34,551 nt of DNA from a virus: IMG/VR virus record IMGVR_UViG_3300034104_002007, positions 1 through 34,551 of that record; one strand, 5' to 3'. The notes beneath the pieces were generated by a model. That model did not search any database, was not told the DNA's origin, and worked only from the letters and a program-made list of their open reading frames with translations. Of the stretch, positions 1,138 through 31,634 are shown piece by piece. Position numbers and translations under genes: made by a program. Position 1 is the stretch's first letter, and every line of letters starts with the position of its first letter.

Positions 1138-2271
1138 TTAAATTACATAAATTTGTCTAGGCATAGCTCTAAACTTGAGTTGTTTATTAAGATTTTCAGC
1201 AATTAGGGCTTCTCTTTCCATAACTTTTTCTGGTTTTAATCTTGTAAGTCTTCCTTCAGACCCAATTAATTCATCAATTAATTTTGTTTTTTCATCTTTT
1301 GCTTCAGTACCTAAAGACTGATAATCCATAGTTAAATCACCACCATCACCAGTTTTTAAATTACCACTAAATTTTCCACGAACTCTTGATAGTGTTTCCT
1401 TACAATATGCGATAAACCATCTTCTAACCCAAACTTGGGCTGGGTTATTTAACTCGTCCCAATTCATTTTATCAAATGGTACATCAGATGGTAATGTAAT
1501 TATATCTGGGTTTTCTTTTAAACAATCGTCCTTACCACCATTAGTTGTGTCATAATACCAATACCACACTTTACCTTTAGTCATTGTTCCGTTACCAAAA
1601 TCAAACTTACCTCCAGGGGTATTCATTAAATGTATCGCTTTTTTACCACCAGGTAGTGCTGTTATTCTATATGTTAAATCACCAGCAATAATTCTTCTCT
1701 GAATATTAATTTCTTGCATTCTTAATAACATATCAAACGCTGGCATCATAAAATATGAACCAGCCATATTACCACCCATTTGTGCTAAACCACCTCCACC
1801 ACCAAGACCACCACCATATCCTAGTGAACCAAATGACCACGGATCAAACATTGTGTTATTTAGTGTTGGGGGGCTAAACCATAGTAATTCATTAATTTCT
1901 CTATTTGCTGGAATTTCATAAATTTGTTGATTGGGTACTAACTGGATATAATCTTTTTTAAGTTCCCATTCCCCACCAGCTTGTAGCCCAACAATTTTAG
2001 AATAGGCATAGGTATAACGAGTTTCGTAATCTAAACTTTTTGTAATAAATGCTTTTGCTAAAGATTGTGTTTCAATATTCAAATTATAAAGAGATGTCCA
2101 TTGTGATTCAATTAACCAATCTTGGACATACTGTGAGTATTCGTCAATTGAAAACTCAAGTAACGTATCCATTTGTTCGTCTTCCAATTCAACAGACCTA
2201 AGCGGTGCTCCTAATAGGTGACGTACTTTTGTGAACAACTTTGTTCTTTCGGGTTCAGAAATTACAGACAT
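1138..2271 (-). CDS. Neck / head-completion protein, gp13-like
   Basis: A 377-residue protein whose N-terminus (a helix, then LGAPLRSVELEDEQMDTLLE at about residues 20-39) resembles gp13-type neck proteins of T4-like phages, which begin with a similar LGxP...VEL.DEQ helix. In T4, gp13 and gp14 form the ring that closes the DNA-filled head and binds the tail. Other visible features are a glycine-rich loop at residues 148-171, a WYWYYD aromatic patch, and a C-terminus rich in charged helices ending MPRQIYVI. A gp14-like gene lies about 3.4 kb away on the other strand, instead of adjacent as in T4. A TATTTATA element lies 12 bases upstream of the ATG. The alternative is another portal-adjacent adaptor; structural function is more certain than the exact gp13 identity. 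Confidence 0.55.
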   Translation of the reverse strand: MSVISEPERTKLFTKVRHLLGAPLRSVELEDEQMDTLLEFSIDEYSQYVQDWLIESQWTSLYNLNIETQSLAKAFITKSLDYETRYTYAYSKIVGLQAGGEWELKKDYIQLVPNQQIYEIPANREINELLWFSPPTLNNTMFDPWSFGSLGYGGGLGGGGGLAQMGGNMAGSYFMMPAFDMLLRMQEINIQRRIIAGDLTYRITALPGGKKAIHLMNTPGGKFDFGNGTMTKGKVWYWYYDTTNGGKDDCLKENPDIITLPSDVPFDKMNWDELNNPAQVWVRRWFIAYCKETLSRVRGKFSGNLKTGDGGDLTMDYQSLGTEAKDEKTKLIDELIGSEGRLTRLKPEKVMEREALIAENLNKQLKFRAMPRQIYVI

Positions 2272-2295: not shown

Positions 2296-3378
2296 TTATT
2301 TAGTTCTATTTAAATACAGCTCATTTACAAATTCCCAATTTACGTGATTCCAAAAATTTTTAATATATTGGTCTCTTTTGTTTTGATATTTTAAATAATA
2401 AGCGTGTTCCCAAACATCAAGACCCAAAAGTGGATAACCACCTCCTTCTACGATATTCATAAGTGGATTATCTTGGTTTGGTGTCGACATAATTTTTAAT
2501 CTGTTTGTTTTTGTTATAACTAACCAAACCCAACCAGATCCAAATCTATCTTCAGCAACAAGATTAAATTCGTCTTTCATTTTTTTTATATTACCAAATT
2601 GTTTATTTATTTTTTCTAAAATTTCACCTTTTGGTAATTGTTTGTTTGGTGATAACATTTTCCAGAATAATGCGTGGTTAAAAGCACCACCAGCATTATT
2701 TCTTATTTTTGTGTCGTATTTACTAATTGATTGTACAATTTCTTCTAGTTCAACATCTTTATACTTTTTTTTAGAAAGTGCGTCATTTAATTTTTTTACA
2801 TAACCCTTGTAATGTTTATTGTAATGAATATCCATTGTCTCTGGGTCAACAAATTGTTTTAAAGCTGAATATGAATATGGTAATTTATCAATACCAATTT
2901 TTTTCATCTCCATCAAAAATTCTTTTCTTATTGATTTTTTTTCCTCTAAAATTATTTGTTCGTTAAGTAAATTAACTTTGTTTGTTAAAGACTCGTATAT
3001 TGTTTTTTCTTTTTCTGGGTGCTTCTTTTCAAATTTTTTAATAACAGATCCGGCTTCCGCGTTTGCCTCATCTTCGTTTGGCCCACCAATGTCTGGCCCT
3101 CTTTCCATTCCTTTTGTTGAGTGTTGCCACTCGTGTACCCATTCGTGAGCTAAAGTTCTCATTATATCACGATTAAGTCTTCCTTTGGTTAAGATTTTTA
3201 ATTCATTGTTACTTGTTCTACTGCCGGTTGACATACTACCATATCTTTCACCAGTAAAAATTATATCAATTTTTGTTTTGACAGGGTATTCTTTATTTAA
3301 AAATTTAATAAATCTTTTGTAAAGATCCAAATCTTTGTCATCCAAATCACAATTTTTACATTTAACAGAAACTTCCAT
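2296..3378 (-). CDS. Fusion of a zinc metalloprotease domain and a Mn/Fe superoxide dismutase
   Basis: A 360-residue two-domain protein. Residues 1-120 carry a CxxC (7-10), the zinc-protease motif HEWVH (H78, E79, H82) extended by EWQH, and a downstream acidic NEDEANAEAG (101-110) that could give the third zinc ligand. Residues 125-160 form a charged helical linker. Residues 165-360 are an almost complete Mn/Fe superoxide dismutase with all four metal ligands: H185 (in DIHYNKHY), H235 (NNAGGAFNHALFW), D321 and H325 (GLDVWEHAYYLKYQ), plus the active-site tyrosine Y193. The second-sphere Gln (Q302 in NQDNPLM) and the GG at 230-231 are the Mn-type pattern. SODs convert superoxide to O2 and H2O2. 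There is no signal peptide. The gene lies 25 bases upstream of the gp13-like gene on the same strand, suggesting late expression and possibly a virion location. The domain calls are firm; the purpose of the fusion is unknown. Confidence 0.88.
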   Translation of the reverse strand: MEVSVKCKNCDLDDKDLDLYKRFIKFLNKEYPVKTKIDIIFTGERYGSMSTGSRTSNNELKILTKGRLNRDIMRTLAHEWVHEWQHSTKGMERGPDIGGPNEDEANAEAGSVIKKFEKKHPEKEKTIYESLTNKVNLLNEQIILEEKKSIRKEFLMEMKKIGIDKLPYSYSALKQFVDPETMDIHYNKHYKGYVKKLNDALSKKKYKDVELEEIVQSISKYDTKIRNNAGGAFNHALFWKMLSPNKQLPKGEILEKINKQFGNIKKMKDEFNLVAEDRFGSGWVWLVITKTNRLKIMSTPNQDNPLMNIVEGGGYPLLGLDVWEHAYYLKYQNKRDQYIKNFWNHVNWEFVNELYLNRTK

Positions 3379-3450: not shown

Positions 3451-3825
3451 TTAAAATTTAATACCGGTACCTTTTAAAATGTCTGTACCAATCTCAATTC
3501 CTTTCTGTATTGTTTTTTGAATGTCTCCAAAATCAATGTTGATTGTTGCTAAATTCATTAAACAAGTTTTTATTTTTTCTTTTTTATCTTCTGGTATTTT
3601 TTCTATTACACCTGGTAAAGCAGCAGAACAAGCCGTAATATCAAACTTTGTTTCAGTACAACTGGGTGGAATCATAGTTTGGTCAACGCCATTATCTGTA
3701 AAACATTTTAAAATATCTTCTTGAGGTCCTTCATATAACAACCCTTTAGTTTTTAAATACCGTTCTTCGGCTAACAAATTTATTTGTTGTATTTTTCTAA
3801 TTTTGGTTTGACTTCTACTATTCAT
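3451..3825 (-). CDS. Hypothetical protein, 124 aa, with helical leader
   Basis: A 124-residue protein of unknown function. The N-terminus is basic and helical (IRKIQQINLLAEERYLKTKG) and resembles the linker of the neighbouring metalloprotease-SOD protein (NKVNLLNEQIILEE), a possible shared targeting or packaging peptide. The remainder has several cysteines (in LKCFTDN, PSCTET, TACSA, KTCLMN), which could pair or bind metal, and a C-terminal amphipathic helix ending GTDILKGTGIKF. There is no clear signal peptide. A TATTTATT element lies 12 bases upstream and a good terminator follows, so it can be a single-gene unit, though the helicase gene lies just upstream on the same strand. Confidence 0.7.
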   Translation of the reverse strand: MNSRSQTKIRKIQQINLLAEERYLKTKGLLYEGPQEDILKCFTDNGVDQTMIPPSCTETKFDITACSAALPGVIEKIPEDKKEKIKTCLMNLATINIDFGDIQKTIQKGIEIGTDILKGTGIKF

Positions 3826-3861: not shown

Positions 3862-5622
3862 CTACATTTTTTTATTAATTAAATTTAAAATTTCTTCAAC
3901 AACATCTCCAGATTCTTGTAACTCATCACCCATCACGGTACCAATTACCTTCTTCTTATTATTTAATATGTCGTATATAACACCTTCTATTGTATTTTCA
4001 AATATCGGATAATAAACAAGTACATTATTTTTTTGACCATATCTATATGCCCTATCTTCAGCTTGTGCGTGTTCGGCTGGTACAAAAGATAAGTCATTCA
4101 TAATTACGACTTCAGCAGCAGTTAAAGTAAGTCCAACACCGGCCGCTTTTAAGTTTCCAACAAAAACTTTAATTTTTTCATTTTCCTGGAATTGGTCAAC
4201 AGCATATTGTCTTTGCACTTTATTACAACTACCATCTAAATAAACAGATTCTTTACCAAAGTGACTATGTATTAGTTGTAATGTGTCGGTAAAGTTTGTA
4301 AAAATGATTACTTTTTTTCCCTGATCTATAATGTTCTGTACAAACTCAATAGTTTCTTTTACTTTCTCGTTTGCAATTACCTTTCTTACTTTCATCAGTT
4401 TTGAAAATTGTACTGTGAGTGATGATGATTCTTCTTTTTTATTTTCTAACCACTCATAGTATTCACCCATTAAATCTTTATATTCTTTTGATGTTGTTCT
4501 TAAATAGACTGGTGTGATTATTTTATCTGGTAAATCTAAAACATTTTCCTTCAATCTTCTTAAAATTTGTTTTGATGTTCTATCTCTTAATTCTTCTAGG
4601 TTTGACGCTCCAGTCACATTCCAAACTTTTCTATTACCAGCTCTAAACTGAAAACCTTGACAGTAACGAATAGCATAGGCCATCCAGTTTTGTGCCACAG
4701 GACTTTCAATAATATTTAATAAGTTATAGTAATTAATTGGTCTTGAAGTCATTGGTGTGCCTGTAAGTAACCAAACTCTTTTTATATTTTTTGTAAAATC
4801 ATTTATAAGTTTTGTTCTTTGAGCTTGAGCATTTGATACCATATGTGCTTCATCAAGTATTACAAGTTCAAATTTAGATTGTAGTAAAAGCGAATTTTCT
4901 TTATCTTCTTTATTATGAAAGTTTTTTAATATATCATAGTTAACAATAACAAAATCAGCTTCAGTTGAGAATTTCTTACCTTCTGCAATATAACAGGTTC
5001 TATCTGAATAATTTGCAATTTCTCTTTCCCAATTTATTTTAAGTGACGCGGGACATACAATTAATATTTTTTTAGCACCAGTCTCAAGAGCCGCAATAAT
5101 TGTGGAAGTCGTTTTTCCGAGTCCCATATCGTCAGCCAAAATAAATCTTTTTGACCCAACAAGTTTTTCAATTGCTTCTTTTTGATGAGATAGTGGTGGT
5201 CTGTGGTCATATTTAGAATAATCAATATTAACCTCATCTACTGTTTGTGATTTAATTAAGGACGACTTAGGAACCCAAAATTCAGACAAACGGTCTTTTT
5301 CAAAAAATTTACCCCAGATATGATACGACTTGTCCTTTTCAACAAGTAGTTTTTCTATATAAACCTTTTCTGGTGTTTCAAACAAGTATCGTTCTTCTGC
5401 GAACTTTTTAGCAAAGTAAGGGTCTAACTCAACCCACTTACGAGCAACTTTTGGTTTTGTATTGTAATAAGAGATTATATATTCAGCTTGAGTTCTTGTT
5501 GGGTAGAATTTTTTATTTGTTTCTTTTTTAGATTTCATATAAAGAATATGGTTATTACCCCCACTATATGAGTCTAGTAAATCAAGTGCTTTGTGTTCGA
5601 TAATTTGTTTTTGAGTTTCCAA
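3862..5622 (-). CDS. SNF2-family DEAH ATPase/helicase (SMARCAL1-like, possible UvsW substitute)
   Basis: A 586-residue superfamily 2 ATPase of SNF2 type. Motifs in order: Walker A DDMGLGKT (164-171), DEAH (257-260), TGTP (287-290), a second RecA lobe with GVGLTLTAA (495-503), and the arginine-finger motif QAEDRAYRYGQ (520-530). The spacing and the RAYRYGQ signature are SNF2-like rather than classical UvsW-like. Such proteins translocate on duplex DNA and can anneal or regress forks; in a T4-like phage this could replace UvsW in recombination-dependent replication. The first 130 residues are a family-specific N-terminus. The start is a TTG at 5620-5622 preceded by AGGA; an in-frame stop lies 12 bases upstream, so no longer ATG form exists, and the first ATG is codon 29 (5538). 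The exact biological role is inferred. Confidence 0.88.
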   Translation of the reverse strand: METQKQIIEHKALDLLDSYSGGNNHILYMKSKKETNKKFYPTRTQAEYIISYYNTKPKVARKWVELDPYFAKKFAEERYLFETPEKVYIEKLLVEKDKSYHIWGKFFEKDRLSEFWVPKSSLIKSQTVDEVNIDYSKYDHRPPLSHQKEAIEKLVGSKRFILADDMGLGKTTSTIIAALETGAKKILIVCPASLKINWEREIANYSDRTCYIAEGKKFSTEADFVIVNYDILKNFHNKEDKENSLLLQSKFELVILDEAHMVSNAQAQRTKLINDFTKNIKRVWLLTGTPMTSRPINYYNLLNIIESPVAQNWMAYAIRYCQGFQFRAGNRKVWNVTGASNLEELRDRTSKQILRRLKENVLDLPDKIITPVYLRTTSKEYKDLMGEYYEWLENKKEESSSLTVQFSKLMKVRKVIANEKVKETIEFVQNIIDQGKKVIIFTNFTDTLQLIHSHFGKESVYLDGSCNKVQRQYAVDQFQENEKIKVFVGNLKAAGVGLTLTAAEVVIMNDLSFVPAEHAQAEDRAYRYGQKNNVLVYYPIFENTIEGVIYDILNNKKKVIGTVMGDELQESGDVVEEILNLINKKM

Positions 5623-7509: not shown

Positions 7510-10500
7510 ATGGCAACTAACAGTAAAGTATTCGTATCACCAGGTGTTTATACTTCAGAGGTAGATTTAAGCTTTGTAGCACAAAGTGTTGGCGTTACAA
7601 CTCTTGGGGTTGTTGGTGAGACTTTAAAAGGTCCAGCATTCGAACCAATTTTTGTAAGAAACTTTGATGAATTTCAAACATATTTTGGTGGTACATCCCC
7701 AACTAAATTTATTAACACACAAATACCTAAGTATGAAGCGGCATATATTGCAAAATCTTACTTACAACAATCAAATCAATTATTTGTTACTAGAATTCTA
7801 GGTTTGTCTGGTTATGACGCAGGACCTTCTTGGTCTATTAAAACAGTCGCAAATGTTGATCCGGCAACAATAGATGTTTGGTGTTTAAGCGGCGAAACAT
7901 TCCTTTGTGATTTTAATTGTACTTCAGCTTATACTTCAGATTTTGTTGTAAACTTTACTGGTTGTACTGAATCACAAGATACTATAGTTTATGAAAGTTT
8001 TTTTCCGACTGTAATTCAAAATATTATAGATGAACAAAATCAACAATTTGATGGTTCATCAGTTACATTAAATGAAGGAATTAAAGATTTAATTTTTAAC
8101 GTTATTACAGACGCTGACCCAACAATGGCCGAAGATGAATACATTTCAATTTTTGGTAGTGTTGATGGGACGGATTATTCTGGTGTAACGACATTAGGGT
8201 TTACAGCACAAACAAACTTCTTTGATGTTCCAAATGTTGTTTTTACCGCAAATACTTTAAGTAATTCAGCAAACGATCCTTGGTTTTATGCTTTATTTGA
8301 CCCAACTGGAAATGGTAATTATACTGGATACTCTTTTTGGTCTATTGTACAAGGAGTTCAGTCAATAACACCCACTAGTTTAGTTGGTCCTTTATCTAAT
8401 GTTTTAACATTAACAAGTTCACAAGCACCAGGTTCATTTCTTTTAAGTGCTAGAATTGCCCCAGGTTCAGTTGTTGTTGAGTTTTGCTTGATTGGTTTAA
8501 CTCCAGTCCCAAGTGATATTACATTAACGTTTGACGTTACTTTAGGTGTGTCTAGTGGTTTACCGATAGTGTTTAGTGACTCTGTTACAATTTTAGATGG
8601 TGCTATTTCTGGTTGTTCTTATGTAACATTACCAGATGAGGATTACGGAAGATTAAATGGTATGGCTAGCATTAGTAATTTAGTTTCAAGTGACCCTCTT
8701 ATTTTAGACCCAAATAGTATTACTTTTGAATATGATTTTATTTGTGAACCTATCGTTCCAACTCCAACAGTTACCCCTGTTCCACCAGATAATAACTTAT
8801 GTTATTCTGGAAGTGTTGTTGGTAAAATTTATTATTATACTGGAAATACGTTTACAGATTATGATGATGTTGTTGTTGCAACTTTAAGATCAAGAGGTAT
8901 TGCAACTTACGCCGATAGTAATGTACCAACATATGAGGTAACAGGTCTTACAGATGTTTCTTTAACTATGACTGGTGCTTATTCAGCCGTAACTAAAGAC
9001 CCATACGCAACATTCCTTGTAAATGCAACAAATTCAGGTGGTGTTAATTTTTCTTTTGAAACTTCTTTTAGTACTAGTGATGCTGAATATGTTTCTAAAG
9101 TATTTGGAACTTCCAACTTTGCAAAACCTAAAGCAACCGTTCCATTATTCCTAGAGGAAAGATTCCAAGCGTTTTTAAACTATGCTTACAAAAAAGGATA
9201 TATTAGAGGTTTAAGTTCAGACTTAATCGCACTTGACTCGGCACAATCTGAAAGTACAACTTCAATTGGTTGGTACTTGGATAGATACCAAACACCATCA
9301 TCTCCTTGGGTTGTTTCAGAACTTCGTGGTAATAAAGTTTTTGATTTGTTTAAATTCTATACCGTTGCCGATGGTAATTCTGCAAATACAAATGTTAAAG
9401 TTTCAATTTTTGATATTTCTTTTGCTAACGGAACTTTTAGCGTGTTGGTTAGAGATTATTTTGATTCGGACGCTAACCCTACAGTTTTAGAAAAATTCAC
9501 AAACTGTTCTATGGATCCATCACAAAACAACTTTGTTGCTAAAAAGATTGGTACTTTAGATGGTGAATATCAATTAAACTCTAAATTTATTATGGTTGAA
9601 ATGAATGAGGACGCACCAGTTGATGCACTTCCTTGTGGTTTTGATGGGTATACATTTAGAGAGTATGCTGGTGCTAAACCACCATACCCAATTTATAAAA
9701 CAAAATATAATTTCCCAGGTGAAGTTATTTGGAATCCACCGTTTGGTTTATCAACAGGTGGTGACAACACAACTTTGAGTTCTGGTGATAATGTAAGACG
9801 TACTTATTTAGGGTTTTCAAATCAATTAGGCTATGATTCTGATTTCTTTGAGTATGTTGGAAAACAAAACCCATTAACGTCTTGTGATTTAGATGGTTCT
9901 AATTGGAATTATAAAACTAGAGGTTTCCATATGGATAAGAATGCTTCTGGTATTACAATCAATGGAAACTTTGTAAGTAGTGGCGACCCTAGATTCTTTG
10001 TTGGTGACGCAACATTCTCAACTGAACCTACAAATGATACTAGTCCTTACTATAGATTGTTCTCAAGAAAATATACTTTGTTTGTTCAAGGCGGTTTTGA
10101 CGGATGGGACATTTATAGAGAATATAGAACAAATGGTGATAGATATGTACTTGGACGTACTGGATTCTTAAATGGTGCTTGTGCAACTGACAGATATCCA
10201 ACCGCAACTGGATGGGGTGCGTTTAAACAAATTTCTGTTGGCGATGGAACAAGAGACTATGGAAATACAGATTACTATGCTTATTTATTAGGTGTTAGAA
10301 CATTTGCAAACCCAGAAGCTGTTAATATCAACGTATTTGCAACTCCAGGTATAGACTATGTAAATAATAGCGATTTAGTTGAGGCTACAATTGATATGAT
10401 TGAGTACGAAAGAGCTGACTCTTTATATATCACAACTAGTCCTGATTATAACTTATTCTTACCAACAACAACTGGTACTGACGGATTAATTTACCCTCAA

Positions 10501-11157
10501 GAAGCTGTTGACAACTTGGAAGAAACAGGGATTGACTCAAACTATACCGCAACATATTACCCTTGGGTATTAACAAGAGATAGTGTAAACAATACACAAA
10601 TCTACATTCCAGCAACGGCTGAAGTTACAAGAAACTTGGCACTTACTGACAACATCGCATTCCCTTGGTTTGCGGCGGCTGGTTACACTCGTGGTTTGGT
10701 TAATGCGATTAAAGCTCGTAAGAAGTTGACACAAGAAGATAGAGATACTTTATATCAAGGAAGAATTAACCCAATTGCAACATTCTCTGATGTGGGTACT
10801 GTAATTTGGGGTAATAAGACACTTCAAATTAGAGAGTCCGCTCTTGATAGAATCAACGTAAGAAGATTGTTACTACAAGCTCGTAAATTGATTTCTGCGG
10901 TGTCTGTAAGATTGTTGTTTGATCAAAATGATGAACAAGTACGTCAAGACTTTTTAAATGCTGTAAACCCAATTTTGGATTCAATTAGAAGAGATAGAGG
11001 TTTATATGACTTTAGAGTTACTGTGTCTTCTGATACGGCTGATTTAGATAGAAACCAAATGACAGGTAAAATTTATATCAAACCAACACGTTCACTAGAA
11101 TTTATAGATATTACATTCTATATCACACCAACTGGTGCATCGTTTGAGGATATTTAA
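7510..11157 (+). CDS. gp18: Contractile tail sheath protein (gp18-like), enlarged
   Basis: A 1215-residue sheath subunit; T4 gp18 is about 660. The N-terminus VFVSPGVYTSEVDLS and the region FDEFQTYFGG are classic sheath features. The C-terminal 250 residues are the conserved core: FPWFAAAGYTRGLVNA, QGRINPIATF, WGNKTLQ, SALDRINVRRLL, then the final strands TGKIYIKPTRSLEFIDI. This protein polymerises around the tube and contracts to drive infection. The extra length lies mainly between about residues 115 and 450, a Ser/Thr/Gly-rich beta region that includes several cysteines and a Pro/Thr linker PTPTVTPVPP near residue 415. Core-like sequence resumes at VVVATLRSRG (about 455). The insertion probably decorates the sheath surface. 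A terminator follows directly. The family call is firm. Confidence 0.93.
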   Translation: MATNSKVFVSPGVYTSEVDLSFVAQSVGVTTLGVVGETLKGPAFEPIFVRNFDEFQTYFGGTSPTKFINTQIPKYEAAYIAKSYLQQSNQLFVTRILGLSGYDAGPSWSIKTVANVDPATIDVWCLSGETFLCDFNCTSAYTSDFVVNFTGCTESQDTIVYESFFPTVIQNIIDEQNQQFDGSSVTLNEGIKDLIFNVITDADPTMAEDEYISIFGSVDGTDYSGVTTLGFTAQTNFFDVPNVVFTANTLSNSANDPWFYALFDPTGNGNYTGYSFWSIVQGVQSITPTSLVGPLSNVLTLTSSQAPGSFLLSARIAPGSVVVEFCLIGLTPVPSDITLTFDVTLGVSSGLPIVFSDSVTILDGAISGCSYVTLPDEDYGRLNGMASISNLVSSDPLILDPNSITFEYDFICEPIVPTPTVTPVPPDNNLCYSGSVVGKIYYYTGNTFTDYDDVVVATLRSRGIATYADSNVPTYEVTGLTDVSLTMTGAYSAVTKDPYATFLVNATNSGGVNFSFETSFSTSDAEYVSKVFGTSNFAKPKATVPLFLEERFQAFLNYAYKKGYIRGLSSDLIALDSAQSESTTSIGWYLDRYQTPSSPWVVSELRGNKVFDLFKFYTVADGNSANTNVKVSIFDISFANGTFSVLVRDYFDSDANPTVLEKFTNCSMDPSQNNFVAKKIGTLDGEYQLNSKFIMVEMNEDAPVDALPCGFDGYTFREYAGAKPPYPIYKTKYNFPGEVIWNPPFGLSTGGDNTTLSSGDNVRRTYLGFSNQLGYDSDFFEYVGKQNPLTSCDLDGSNWNYKTRGFHMDKNASGITINGNFVSSGDPRFFVGDATFSTEPTNDTSPYYRLFSRKYTLFVQGGFDGWDIYREYRTNGDRYVLGRTGFLNGACATDRYPTATGWGAFKQISVGDGTRDYGNTDYYAYLLGVRTFANPEAVNINVFATPGIDYVNNSDLVEATIDMIEYERADSLYITTSPDYNLFLPTTTGTDGLIYPQEAVDNLEETGIDSNYTATYYPWVLTRDSVNNTQIYIPATAEVTRNLALTDNIAFPWFAAAGYTRGLVNAIKARKKLTQEDRDTLYQGRINPIATFSDVGTVIWGNKTLQIRESALDRINVRRLLLQARKLISAVSVRLLFDQNDEQVRQDFLNAVNPILDSIRRDRGLYDFRVTVSSDTADLDRNQMTGKIYIKPTRSLEFIDITFYITPTGASFEDI

Positions 11158-29614: not shown

Positions 29615-30625
29615 ATGGCAATCAAAAAAACAGACTTTAGTTCGATAAAGAAAAAATTCTCGTCGGACGCAAAATACAAACCACAAAGATACTTTGATTT
29701 AGGACCAGCATTTTTAGATGCTGTAGGACTTCCAGGTCCTGCTATGGGACACATCAATATGTTTCTTGGACATTCAGATACTGGAAAAACAACAGCTCTT
29801 GTAAAAACAGCCGTTGATGCTCAAAAAAAAGAAATACTACCGGTTTTTATTATCACAGAACAAAAATGGTCTTTTGAGCACTCAAAACTTATGGGGTTTG
29901 AATGTGAAGAAGTTGTTGATGAAGAAACTGGTGAGTTAACTTGGGATGGTTTCTTTTTATTTAATAACAATTTTAGTTATATTGAACAAATCACAGACTA
30001 TATTAATGATTTATTAGACGCACAAGAAAAAGGTGAGTTAGATTATTCATTATGTATTATGTGGGACTCTGTTGGTTCAGTTCCTTGTAAAATGACATAC
30101 GAAGGTAAAGGCGGTAAACAACACAACGCAAGTGTTTTGGCGGATAAGATTGGAATGGGAATTAACCAAAGAATTTCTGGGTCACGTAAAGCTGATTCTA
30201 AATTTGAAAACACATTAATCATTGTAAACCAACCTTGGGTAGAATTACCAGACAATCCATTTGGACAACCAAAAATTAAAGCAAAAGGTGGTGAAGCAAT
30301 TTGGTTAAACTCATCTTTAGTATTTTTATACGGAAACCAAAAAGGAGCGGGAACAACAAAGATTACAGCGACTAAAGACAAAAGAACTGTTAAATTTGCA
30401 TCAAGAACAAAAGTATCGGTTATGAAAAACCATATTAATGGACTTGGGTTTGAAGATGGTAAAATTATCGTAACACCTCACGGGTTTTTACCTGGAAAAG
30501 ACGCTACGGAAGAAAAGAAATCTATAGAAGATTACAAAAAAGATTATGCCGAATATTGGAAAAATATTATTGGTGTAGATGGTGAATTTGATTTAAAAGA
30601 AGAAAAGGTTTATGAACAAGAATAA
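29615..30625 (+). CDS. uvsX: UvsX/RecA-type strand-exchange recombinase
   Basis: A 336-residue RecA-family ATPase. Walker A is GHSDTGKT (52-59), the Walker B region is LCIMWDS (146-152), a Gln/Asn strand IIVNQPW follows, and loop regions contain KGGKQHNA and the GGEAIWLN stretch. Length and sequence match T4-type UvsX, which forms filaments on ssDNA and drives recombination-dependent replication and repair with gp32. An acidic C-terminal tail is present. The gene overlaps the methyltransferase by 14 bases and heads a tightly packed run down to the helicase. Confidence 0.92.
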   Translation: MAIKKTDFSSIKKKFSSDAKYKPQRYFDLGPAFLDAVGLPGPAMGHINMFLGHSDTGKTTALVKTAVDAQKKEILPVFIITEQKWSFEHSKLMGFECEEVVDEETGELTWDGFFLFNNNFSYIEQITDYINDLLDAQEKGELDYSLCIMWDSVGSVPCKMTYEGKGGKQHNASVLADKIGMGINQRISGSRKADSKFENTLIIVNQPWVELPDNPFGQPKIKAKGGEAIWLNSSLVFLYGNQKGAGTTKITATKDKRTVKFASRTKVSVMKNHINGLGFEDGKIIVTPHGFLPGKDATEEKKSIEDYKKDYAEYWKNIIGVDGEFDLKEEKVYEQE

Positions 30626-31634
30626 ATTAAAAGTAGTATCATTATTTTCCGGTTACGGAACACAAGAGTTAGCACTTAAATATATTGGGGTTGACTATGA
30701 AAATGTTGCAAACTGTGACAACTTCAAACAAGCAAACGAATGTTATGACGTTTTACATACAACAACAAACGGAAATCTAGGAGATATAACAAAAGTTGAC
30801 GAAAACAACTTTCCAAATTGTGATTTATTAACATATTCGTTTCCTTGTCAAGACATTTCAATATCTGGTGTACAAAGAGGAATTAAAGAAGGTACAAGAA
30901 GTGGGTTGTTATTTGATGTTGAAAGACTTTTATCTGTTAATAGACCACAATATCTATTGATGGAAAACGTTAAAAATTTAGTATCTAAAAACCACTATGA
31001 AAATTTTAAAAAACACATTTATTTTCTTCGTGGATTAGGATATACTTCGTACTGGAGAATTTTGAATGGTGCTGACTTTGGTTGTCCACAAAATAGAGAG
31101 CGAGTTTTTATGGTTTCAGTTTTAAATGGTGACAAAGATGACGTGAAACAAAAAATGATGAATGTTGATATTCACAAAAAAACTAGAATACCTATGGACA
31201 CATTTATTGAAGACACCGAAAATCAATCATTGTTTATTGATTGTCCATACACCTTACATCAACCAAAACACCACACAATTTGTAGATTAATTGCTAGAAG
31301 GGATGATATTAGTTACGACCAAGCAAGAAGAATTTATTCTATTGAAGGGTGTTCACCTTGTCTAACAACTAGTGGTTCACCACAAATTATGACAAGAGAC
31401 GGTAGAGTAAGAACAATTACCGCAAGAGAAGGGTATAGGTTTATGGGTGTTCGTGACGAAGATATTGATTTATTACTAACAACATCATTATCAACAAAAG
31501 GGCACGTATCTCTAGCCGGAAACTCAATTTGTGTACCAGTAATGGAAGCTATATTTACAGAGTTTCTCTCTGACTATATCCAGGAAAAAGAACCAGTATT
31601 GTCAAACCCAATAAACGAAACTTCTAATGACTAA
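30612..31634 (+). CDS. C5-cytosine DNA methyltransferase
   Basis: A 340-residue enzyme with the motifs in canonical order: I (VVSLFSGYGTQELAL, SAM binding), IV FPCQ (77-80, catalytic C79), VI ENV (118-120), VIII QNRERV (160-165), IX RTITAREGYRFMG (267-279) and X AGNSICVPV (302-310). The target recognition region (about 170-265) is short, so the recognised sequence cannot be told. It methylates cytosine C5 in duplex DNA, probably to protect phage DNA from host restriction. It overlaps uvsX by 14 bases and RNase H by 8, so it is part of the replication operon rather than a stand-alone cassette. No restriction enzyme gene lies next to it. The function call is firm. Confidence 0.95.
   Translation: MNKNKLKVVSLFSGYGTQELALKYIGVDYENVANCDNFKQANECYDVLHTTTNGNLGDITKVDENNFPNCDLLTYSFPCQDISISGVQRGIKEGTRSGLLFDVERLLSVNRPQYLLMENVKNLVSKNHYENFKKHIYFLRGLGYTSYWRILNGADFGCPQNRERVFMVSVLNGDKDDVKQKMMNVDIHKKTRIPMDTFIEDTENQSLFIDCPYTLHQPKHHTICRLIARRDDISYDQARRIYSIEGCSPCLTTSGSPQIMTRDGRVRTITAREGYRFMGVRDEDIDLLLTTSLSTKGHVSLAGNSICVPVMEAIFTEFLSDYIQEKEPVLSNPINETSND

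Follow-up and report, generated by a model that had tools for sequence, protein, structure and literature searches.

The gene and its surroundings

What would a phage do with a protein that joins a zinc-peptidase-like domain to a superoxide dismutase (SOD), encoded beside a gene for the neck of its particle, and where would such a protein act? The question is raised by one reading frame in a 34,551-nucleotide stretch of viral DNA, here called the window, which is a 34.5-kb fragment of a larger phage genome. The original prediction placed the frame at 2296-3378, and these coordinates and the length of 360 amino acids are exact, but the strand had to be corrected: the frame begins with an ATG on the minus strand, and the forward translation of the plus strand contains many stops. 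The arrangement of the 41-kDa protein itself was confirmed, a zincin-like domain with an HEWVH motif (residues 1-129) standing in front of a complete Mn-type Fe/Mn superoxide dismutase (residues 158-360). The features of the gene and its neighbours are the following.

2992..3378, minus strand: zincin-like domain, putative metallopeptidase (HEXXH and E102), residues 1-129; from the modelled fold and conserved residues
3133..3147, minus strand: HEWVH motif, residues 78-82; H78, E79, W80 and H82 invariant in 23-24 relatives
3073..3075, minus strand: E102, probable third zinc ligand; invariant, the divergent stand-alone form L163 included
2908..2991, minus strand: linker corresponding to the leader peptide of the SOD, predicted flexible, residues 130-157; from pLDDT, motif density and spacing in the sister clade
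2959..2967, minus strand: putative prohead-protease site 1, L138-N-E140; 53 of 53 non-redundant relatives
2941..2949, minus strand: putative prohead-protease site 2, L144-E-E146; L/I in 53 of 53, E in 49 of 53
2908..2916, minus strand: putative prohead-protease site 3, L155-M-E157, abutting M158 of the SOD; 53 of 53 fused and 37 of 38 zincin-less forms
2296..2907, minus strand: Mn-type Fe/Mn superoxide dismutase, residues 158-360 and stop; PF00081/PF02777, PDB match and invariant residues
3384..3390, minus strand: TATTTAT element just 5' of the start codon, presumably promoter-like; found in most relatives printed
1138..2271, minus strand: T4-like neck / head-tail adaptor protein, downstream neighbour; PHROG 211 Ad2, E 2.6e-9
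3451..3825, minus strand: upstream neighbour of 124 aa, N-terminus INLLAEERYL..LLYEG like the linker peptide; a resemblance of motif, from a motif scan of the window's ORFs
3862..5622, minus strand: SNF2-type helicase, conserved upstream neighbour; PF00176, PHROG 62

Related phages, among which the original prediction had suggested looking for the same architecture, do carry it: the fusion recurs in the same genomic setting in well over 100 contigs of IMG/VR, and the catalytic residues of both domains do not vary. It is present in all of the best 80 IMG/VR relatives (69-100% identical) and in 75 of the 76 loci retrieved when a divergent member's SOD served as query, some of which are the same contigs as those among the 80. 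With the N domain alone as query, 42 of 46 loci also show the SOD, and the remaining four are the stand-alone genes L163 and L164 and the frames L124 and L165, which are too short for an SOD. As the best 80 relatives and all but one of the 76 further loci are fused, chance and assembly error are excluded, and an assembly or frameshift artefact joining two separate genes, of which the original prediction had warned, is ruled out by a fusion that recurs at 69-100% identity in more than 100 contigs. The fusion is fixed in a large freshwater phage lineage and is no one-off; it does appear to be undescribed, as had been supposed, since a search of the open-access literature found no published account of a zincin-SOD fusion. 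The lineage is one of very large lake-water phages, probably of the T4-like jumbo type.

An SNF2-type helicase lies upstream in 73 of the 73 fused loci with room for it, and a T4-like neck gene downstream in 56 of the 75 with room. The match of this neighbour to PHROG 211 (E about 3e-9) bears out the phage structural context that had been proposed. A cultured relative was sought by means of the neck protein, and no match was found in the phage collection. Elsewhere in the window, positions 7510-11157 (plus strand) encode a sheath-like protein of 1215 aa with the N-terminus VFVSPGVYTSEVD, which is about twice the size of T4 gp18 and so probably has an inserted domain, and positions 30612-31634 (plus strand) hold a 340-aa ORF whose N-terminal part, ..VVSLFSGYGTQELAL.., resembles a C5 cytosine DNA methyltransferase motif.

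The superoxide dismutase and zincin-like domains

Residues 163-243 match Sod_Fe_N (PF00081; E 5e-23, 81.8 bits against a gathering score of 27) and residues 249-353 match Sod_Fe_C (PF02777; E 2e-40, 137.1 bits against a gathering score of 20.9) in Pfam, and the best sequence match in the PDB is the MnSOD of Sphingobacterium (E 5e-62). None of the 24 aligned relatives departs from the metal ligands H185, H235, D321 and H325, the gateway residue Y193 or Q302, so that the complete SOD read from the sequence at the outset is upheld and none of its ligands has been lost. Judged by its residues, Q302 suggests a Mn-type enzyme. The top row of a fold search against the PDB is a Plasmodium SOD (Z 24.3), but it is tied with bacterial MnSODs, and the metal cannot be read from the fold match.

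Among cellular SODs the nearest are separate proteins, mostly from Bacteroidota and at most 57% identical, and none has a zincin; freshwater members of this phylum are accordingly the probable hosts. A tree of SODs separates the phage enzymes, as a single group (100/100), from their cellular counterparts and likewise unites the zincin-fused forms (83/84); the tree was rooted by midpoint, and on it the gain or loss of the zincin is therefore undecided. A protein of an uncultured member of the Caudovirales (A0A6J5L953 in BFVD, 501 aa), annotated only as superoxide dismutase, is 70% identical over the SOD part and probably belongs to the same lineage, although the match stops short of the zincin part. 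The Fe/Mn SODs of Pseudomonas Wroclawvirus PA5oct/MIJ3 and Vibrio phage 2.275.O belong to the same family as the SOD of the fusion, but they are free-standing, 25-27% identical and located among stress or metabolic genes.

The N-terminal 129 residues contain the HEWVH motif and a conserved NEDEAN helix. H78, E79, H82 and E102 are invariant in the relatives (23-24 sequences aligned), and of E102 and E104 only the former is retained in the stand-alone form L163, which makes it the likelier third zinc ligand. A zincin-type fold is predicted for the N domain (model pLDDT 91.5), with PDB fold matches to YbeY (1oz9; Z 9.9, 2.7 Å over 108), M1 aminopeptidases (about 9) and Wss1 (9.1), rows that are tied, so that a zincin subgroup is not assigned. 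YbeY is an RNase, and since it shares the fold, peptidase rather than RNase activity is not certain. Residues 1-129 may thus be described as a putative metallopeptidase of the gluzincin type, on the strength of the HEXXH motif, the downstream Glu and the modelled zincin fold, and to that extent the zinc domain foreseen in front of the SOD has been borne out.

None of the named peptidase families was reached by this domain in Pfam, PHROG or further searches; in Pfam it scored 18.1 bits for BSP (cut-off 23.8) and 13.6 for M91 (cut-off 25), and in PHROG it matches family 16532, to which no function is attached, at E 0.001. Matches in BFVD include IrrE-like and SprT-like phage proteins. A stand-alone form of 129 aa (L163, L164) ends exactly at the domain boundary of the fusion. 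Stand-alone zincin relatives situated away from an SOD were noted in other phages, at L163:3001-3387 and L164:3001-3387 and in Synechococcus phage S-SRM01 (L166:5938-6336).

The linker and the leader peptides of T4

In phage T4 the internal head proteins IPI, IPII, IPIII and Alt have capsid targeting sequences (CTSs) and are cut by gp21, and the known CTSs of T4 are terminal. Such short leader peptides guide proteins to the interior of the T4 head and are clipped off by the prohead protease gp21, which cleaves after L/I-X-E; for IPIII a leader of 10 residues is enough for head targeting (PMC9026906). In the fused protein, residues 118-157 are the variable part, yet three Leu/Ile-x-Glu steps in it (138-140, 144-146 and 155-157) are fixed, and the invariant M158, the first residue of the SOD, comes directly after the last of them. 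At 8.8 per 100 aa, L/I-x-E is 12-16 times as dense in residues 118-157 as in the two domains (0.74 and 0.53), and the count per linker is 3.7, where shuffles of matched composition give 1.7. The full-length AlphaFold model has a pLDDT below 50 over residues 139-173, and the linker is predicted to be mainly helical. L/I-x-E is a short motif, and an amphipathic helix could conserve it instead. An internal translation start at M158 is conceivable; no conserved Shine-Dalgarno-like stretch was found in front of it, the upstream DNA being A-rich in all cases.

DISCRIMINATING evidence comes from a sister clade of about 70 loci, found with the exceptional SOD L240 as query, in which an SOD without a zincin occupies the same genomic slot. 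Genes of this clade begin with peptides of about 30 aa, such as MKHIENKIKLITEEIQNVEKQENETLFLNE/MKKIGIEK-SOD, where the slash marks the step before the SOD, and the MKHIENKIKLITEEIQNVEKQENETLFLNE peptide, read ungapped, has the same spacing as the linker of the fused form, NKINLLNEQILLTEKENIRKEFLMEMKKIGIEK. The step [L/I]-x-E/M before the SOD is kept in 37 of 38 distinct forms of the sister clade. Because the N-terminal peptide matches both in spacing and in this step, the linker is seen as the SOD's own leader, and either the zincin was joined in front of that leader or it was lost in the sister clade.

Large relatives and their leader-bearing proteins

Two large relatives, G001 (304 kb; L089-L104) and G002 (296 kb; L105-L119), were read in pieces. 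The gp21 family (PF03420) occurs in four of four relatives of about 300 kb (G001, G002 and both 322-kb relatives) and in nine of the 24 contigs searched, the rest being mostly fragments; in the window, itself a fragment, no gp21 was noticed. In the relatives' major capsid protein, SFLINE/ATSEG aligns with SFLTE/AEIGG of T4 gp23, a comparison that rests on local alignment, the MAFFT pair alignment having misplaced the N-termini; I-N-E/A of the capsid protein stands opposite L-T-E/A of T4.

Dozens of otherwise unrelated proteins of G001 and G002 start with recurrent L/I-x-E leaders, for example MKKVIRLTESDLTRIVKRVINE, MKIIITENQYKLIKEN and MNLKESIKKVLREE, and they are probably a large set of capsid-targeted cargo. 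Leader types noted in these genomes include MKKVIRLTESDL.., MKIIITENQ.., MNLKESIRKILREE.. and ..EKKRILNLYGIL.E. About 52 of 377 and 37 of 368 ORFs in the two genomes count as L/I-x-E-rich leader ORFs. Their first 30 residues hold 5.5 such motifs per 100 aa, where other ORFs have 1.4-1.6; these densities are partly built in, because the leader was defined by a regular expression made after examples had been seen. A profile built on the most frequent kind of leader, MKKVIRLTESDLTRIVKRVINE, fails to match the linker, and the likeness of the linker to the leaders is therefore one of motif and position, not of family.

The heptamer TATTTAT stands 2-9 nt before the start of 44 of 377 and 52 of 368 ORFs in the two genomes, and it is enriched before leader-bearing ORFs (Fisher p 1e-6 and 7e-8). 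The SOD fusion has it in the window and in most relatives printed, and in the sister clade it lies farther upstream (about 15-30 nt). The element looks like a late promoter, but its orientation is puzzling, as TATTTATA corresponds to the T4 late promoter TATAAATA in reverse complement.

The fused proteins are 360, about 500, about 600 or about 700 aa long, a variation owed to several unrelated C-terminal modules that follow the SOD. At the junctions between SOD and C-terminal module, L/I-x-E is present in 39 of 39 distinct cases, the sites numbering 74, where shuffling gives 34 and at most 48. At least four unrelated modules fused to the SOD in this position were noted (L008:3802-4830, L037:6057-7112, L167:4592-5716 and the C-terminus of L240), and two C-terminal modules have, by eye only, D..EXK-like motifs (GQDFDV..FVQVKP; PYDL..ISCK); searches of the modules against solved structures, Pfam and PHROG gave nothing credible. 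At 238754-242671 of G002 (locus L045), the SOD gene is surrounded by an array of five paralogous leader-tagged proteins of about 149 aa. The SOD protein of G002 carries this module at its C-terminus as well, and the neighbouring stand-alone copies have their own leader. An apparent composite occurs in G001 at 42375-43985, where the leader MKDLIRQILRED comes first and copies of the 149-aa module follow, preceded by further leader-like peptides within the protein.

A probable composite internal head protein

The explanation that we favour, with a probability of roughly two in three, is that the gene product is a composite internal head protein of the T4 style, with an SOD as cargo and a leader turned linker, cut by a gp21-type protease. 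The conserved place of the gene between the helicase and the neck gene speaks for it. We infer packaging, cleavage, injection, enzyme activity and a biological benefit, and the course of events might be as follows. A small zincin module would have been fused upstream of the SOD, leaving a leader of some 30 residues in mid-protein. The leader would draw the precursor into the prohead core, and during head maturation a gp21-type prohead protease would cut at the L/I-x-E sites to give the zincin, leader fragments and an SOD starting at M158. In its mature form the SOD would stay in the virion, possibly together with the zincin; the SOD would probably enter the host with the DNA, and it may remove superoxide early in infection or protect the packaged DNA. 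With an SOD placed behind a T4-like head-loading tag, the phage probably has an antioxidant enzyme of its own in the particle. The zincin's part would, at a natural guess, be that of a host-directed protease or RNase cargo. The original prediction had spoken of a virion-borne or late-expressed protein, and of these the former is now the best-supported reading, packaging being the presumed step.

It could be argued that the protein is a late-expressed, bifunctional enzyme of the cytosol that is never packaged, its SOD guarding the infected cell, its zincin clearing damaged proteins and its linker being a plain amphipathic or dimerising helix. Both active sites are conserved, free phage SOD genes are found outside head operons (Vibrio phage 2.275.O and Pseudomonas Wroclawvirus) and the linker is predicted to be mainly helical, all of which would suit such an enzyme. 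This scenario leaves unexplained the strict L/I-x-E at domain boundaries, its retention in zincin-less forms and the set of leader peptides in the same genomes, and we regard it as rather unlikely.

The proposal that the protease releases the SOD by cutting the linker in cis can draw on the conserved catalytic residues of the zincin and on a flexible linker. The step before the SOD is, however, kept where the zincin is absent (37 of 38 forms), which makes the zincin an unlikely reason for it; stand-alone zincins occur with no SOD adjacent (L163, S-SRM01), and the motif is that of the T4 prohead protease gp21. This part of the original prediction is not sustained, and cis cleavage appears very improbable. 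A structural use of the SOD fold, as a neck or head decoration with incidental enzyme activity, might be suggested by the adjoining neck gene in most loci, but such a use is hard to reconcile with the invariance of all metal ligands and of the second-shell Tyr and Gln, and it has only the slightest chance of being correct.

Comparison with known systems and significance

The proposed composite head protein shares with the T4 internal proteins an L/I-x-E at the edge of the cargo, a gp21 homologue (here in relatives) and a cargo that varies between relatives. It differs in having its leader within the chain, at residues 130-157 (at the N-terminus in the sister clade), in its cargo, an SOD and a zincin, and in combining several cargo modules in a single precursor. 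As the leader is not N-terminal, the fusion may be said to work like a T4 internal head protein, not to be one. The SPN3US/phiKZ-like phages likewise have a large bolus of internal (ejection) proteins processed by a prohead protease, but they belong to another phage family, their protease has A-x-E specificity, and an SOD is not mentioned in the portion of the account drawn on here (PMC10052503).

A viral SOD within a particle has a precedent in the chlorovirus PBCV-1, which packs an active Cu/Zn SOD (A245R) in its virion, with host superoxide lower than with virus lacking the gene; A245R is, like the SOD considered here, virus-encoded and late, and is proposed to act on host superoxide (PMC7019647). 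It differs in its unrelated Cu/Zn fold and in belonging to a eukaryotic virus, and neither leader cleavage nor fusion to a protease is reported for it (PMC7019647).

A wider interpretation, for and against which the odds seem to us evenly balanced, is that of modular cargo polyproteins, in which targeting peptides inside the chain would link the zincin, the SOD and, in relatives, further domains. The head would receive them as a single precursor, to be cut up by the prohead protease, and they would belong to dozens of leader-tagged proteins that are regulated together and reach the host at infection. If true, the internal-protein system of T4 would extend from single leader-tagged proteins to multi-enzyme precursors, and a virus of bacteria would be seen to pack an antioxidant enzyme, something for which the example found is an algal virus. 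L/I-x-E leaders together with TATTTAT would then provide a sequence rule that marks dozens of jumbo-phage proteins as candidate injected cargo.
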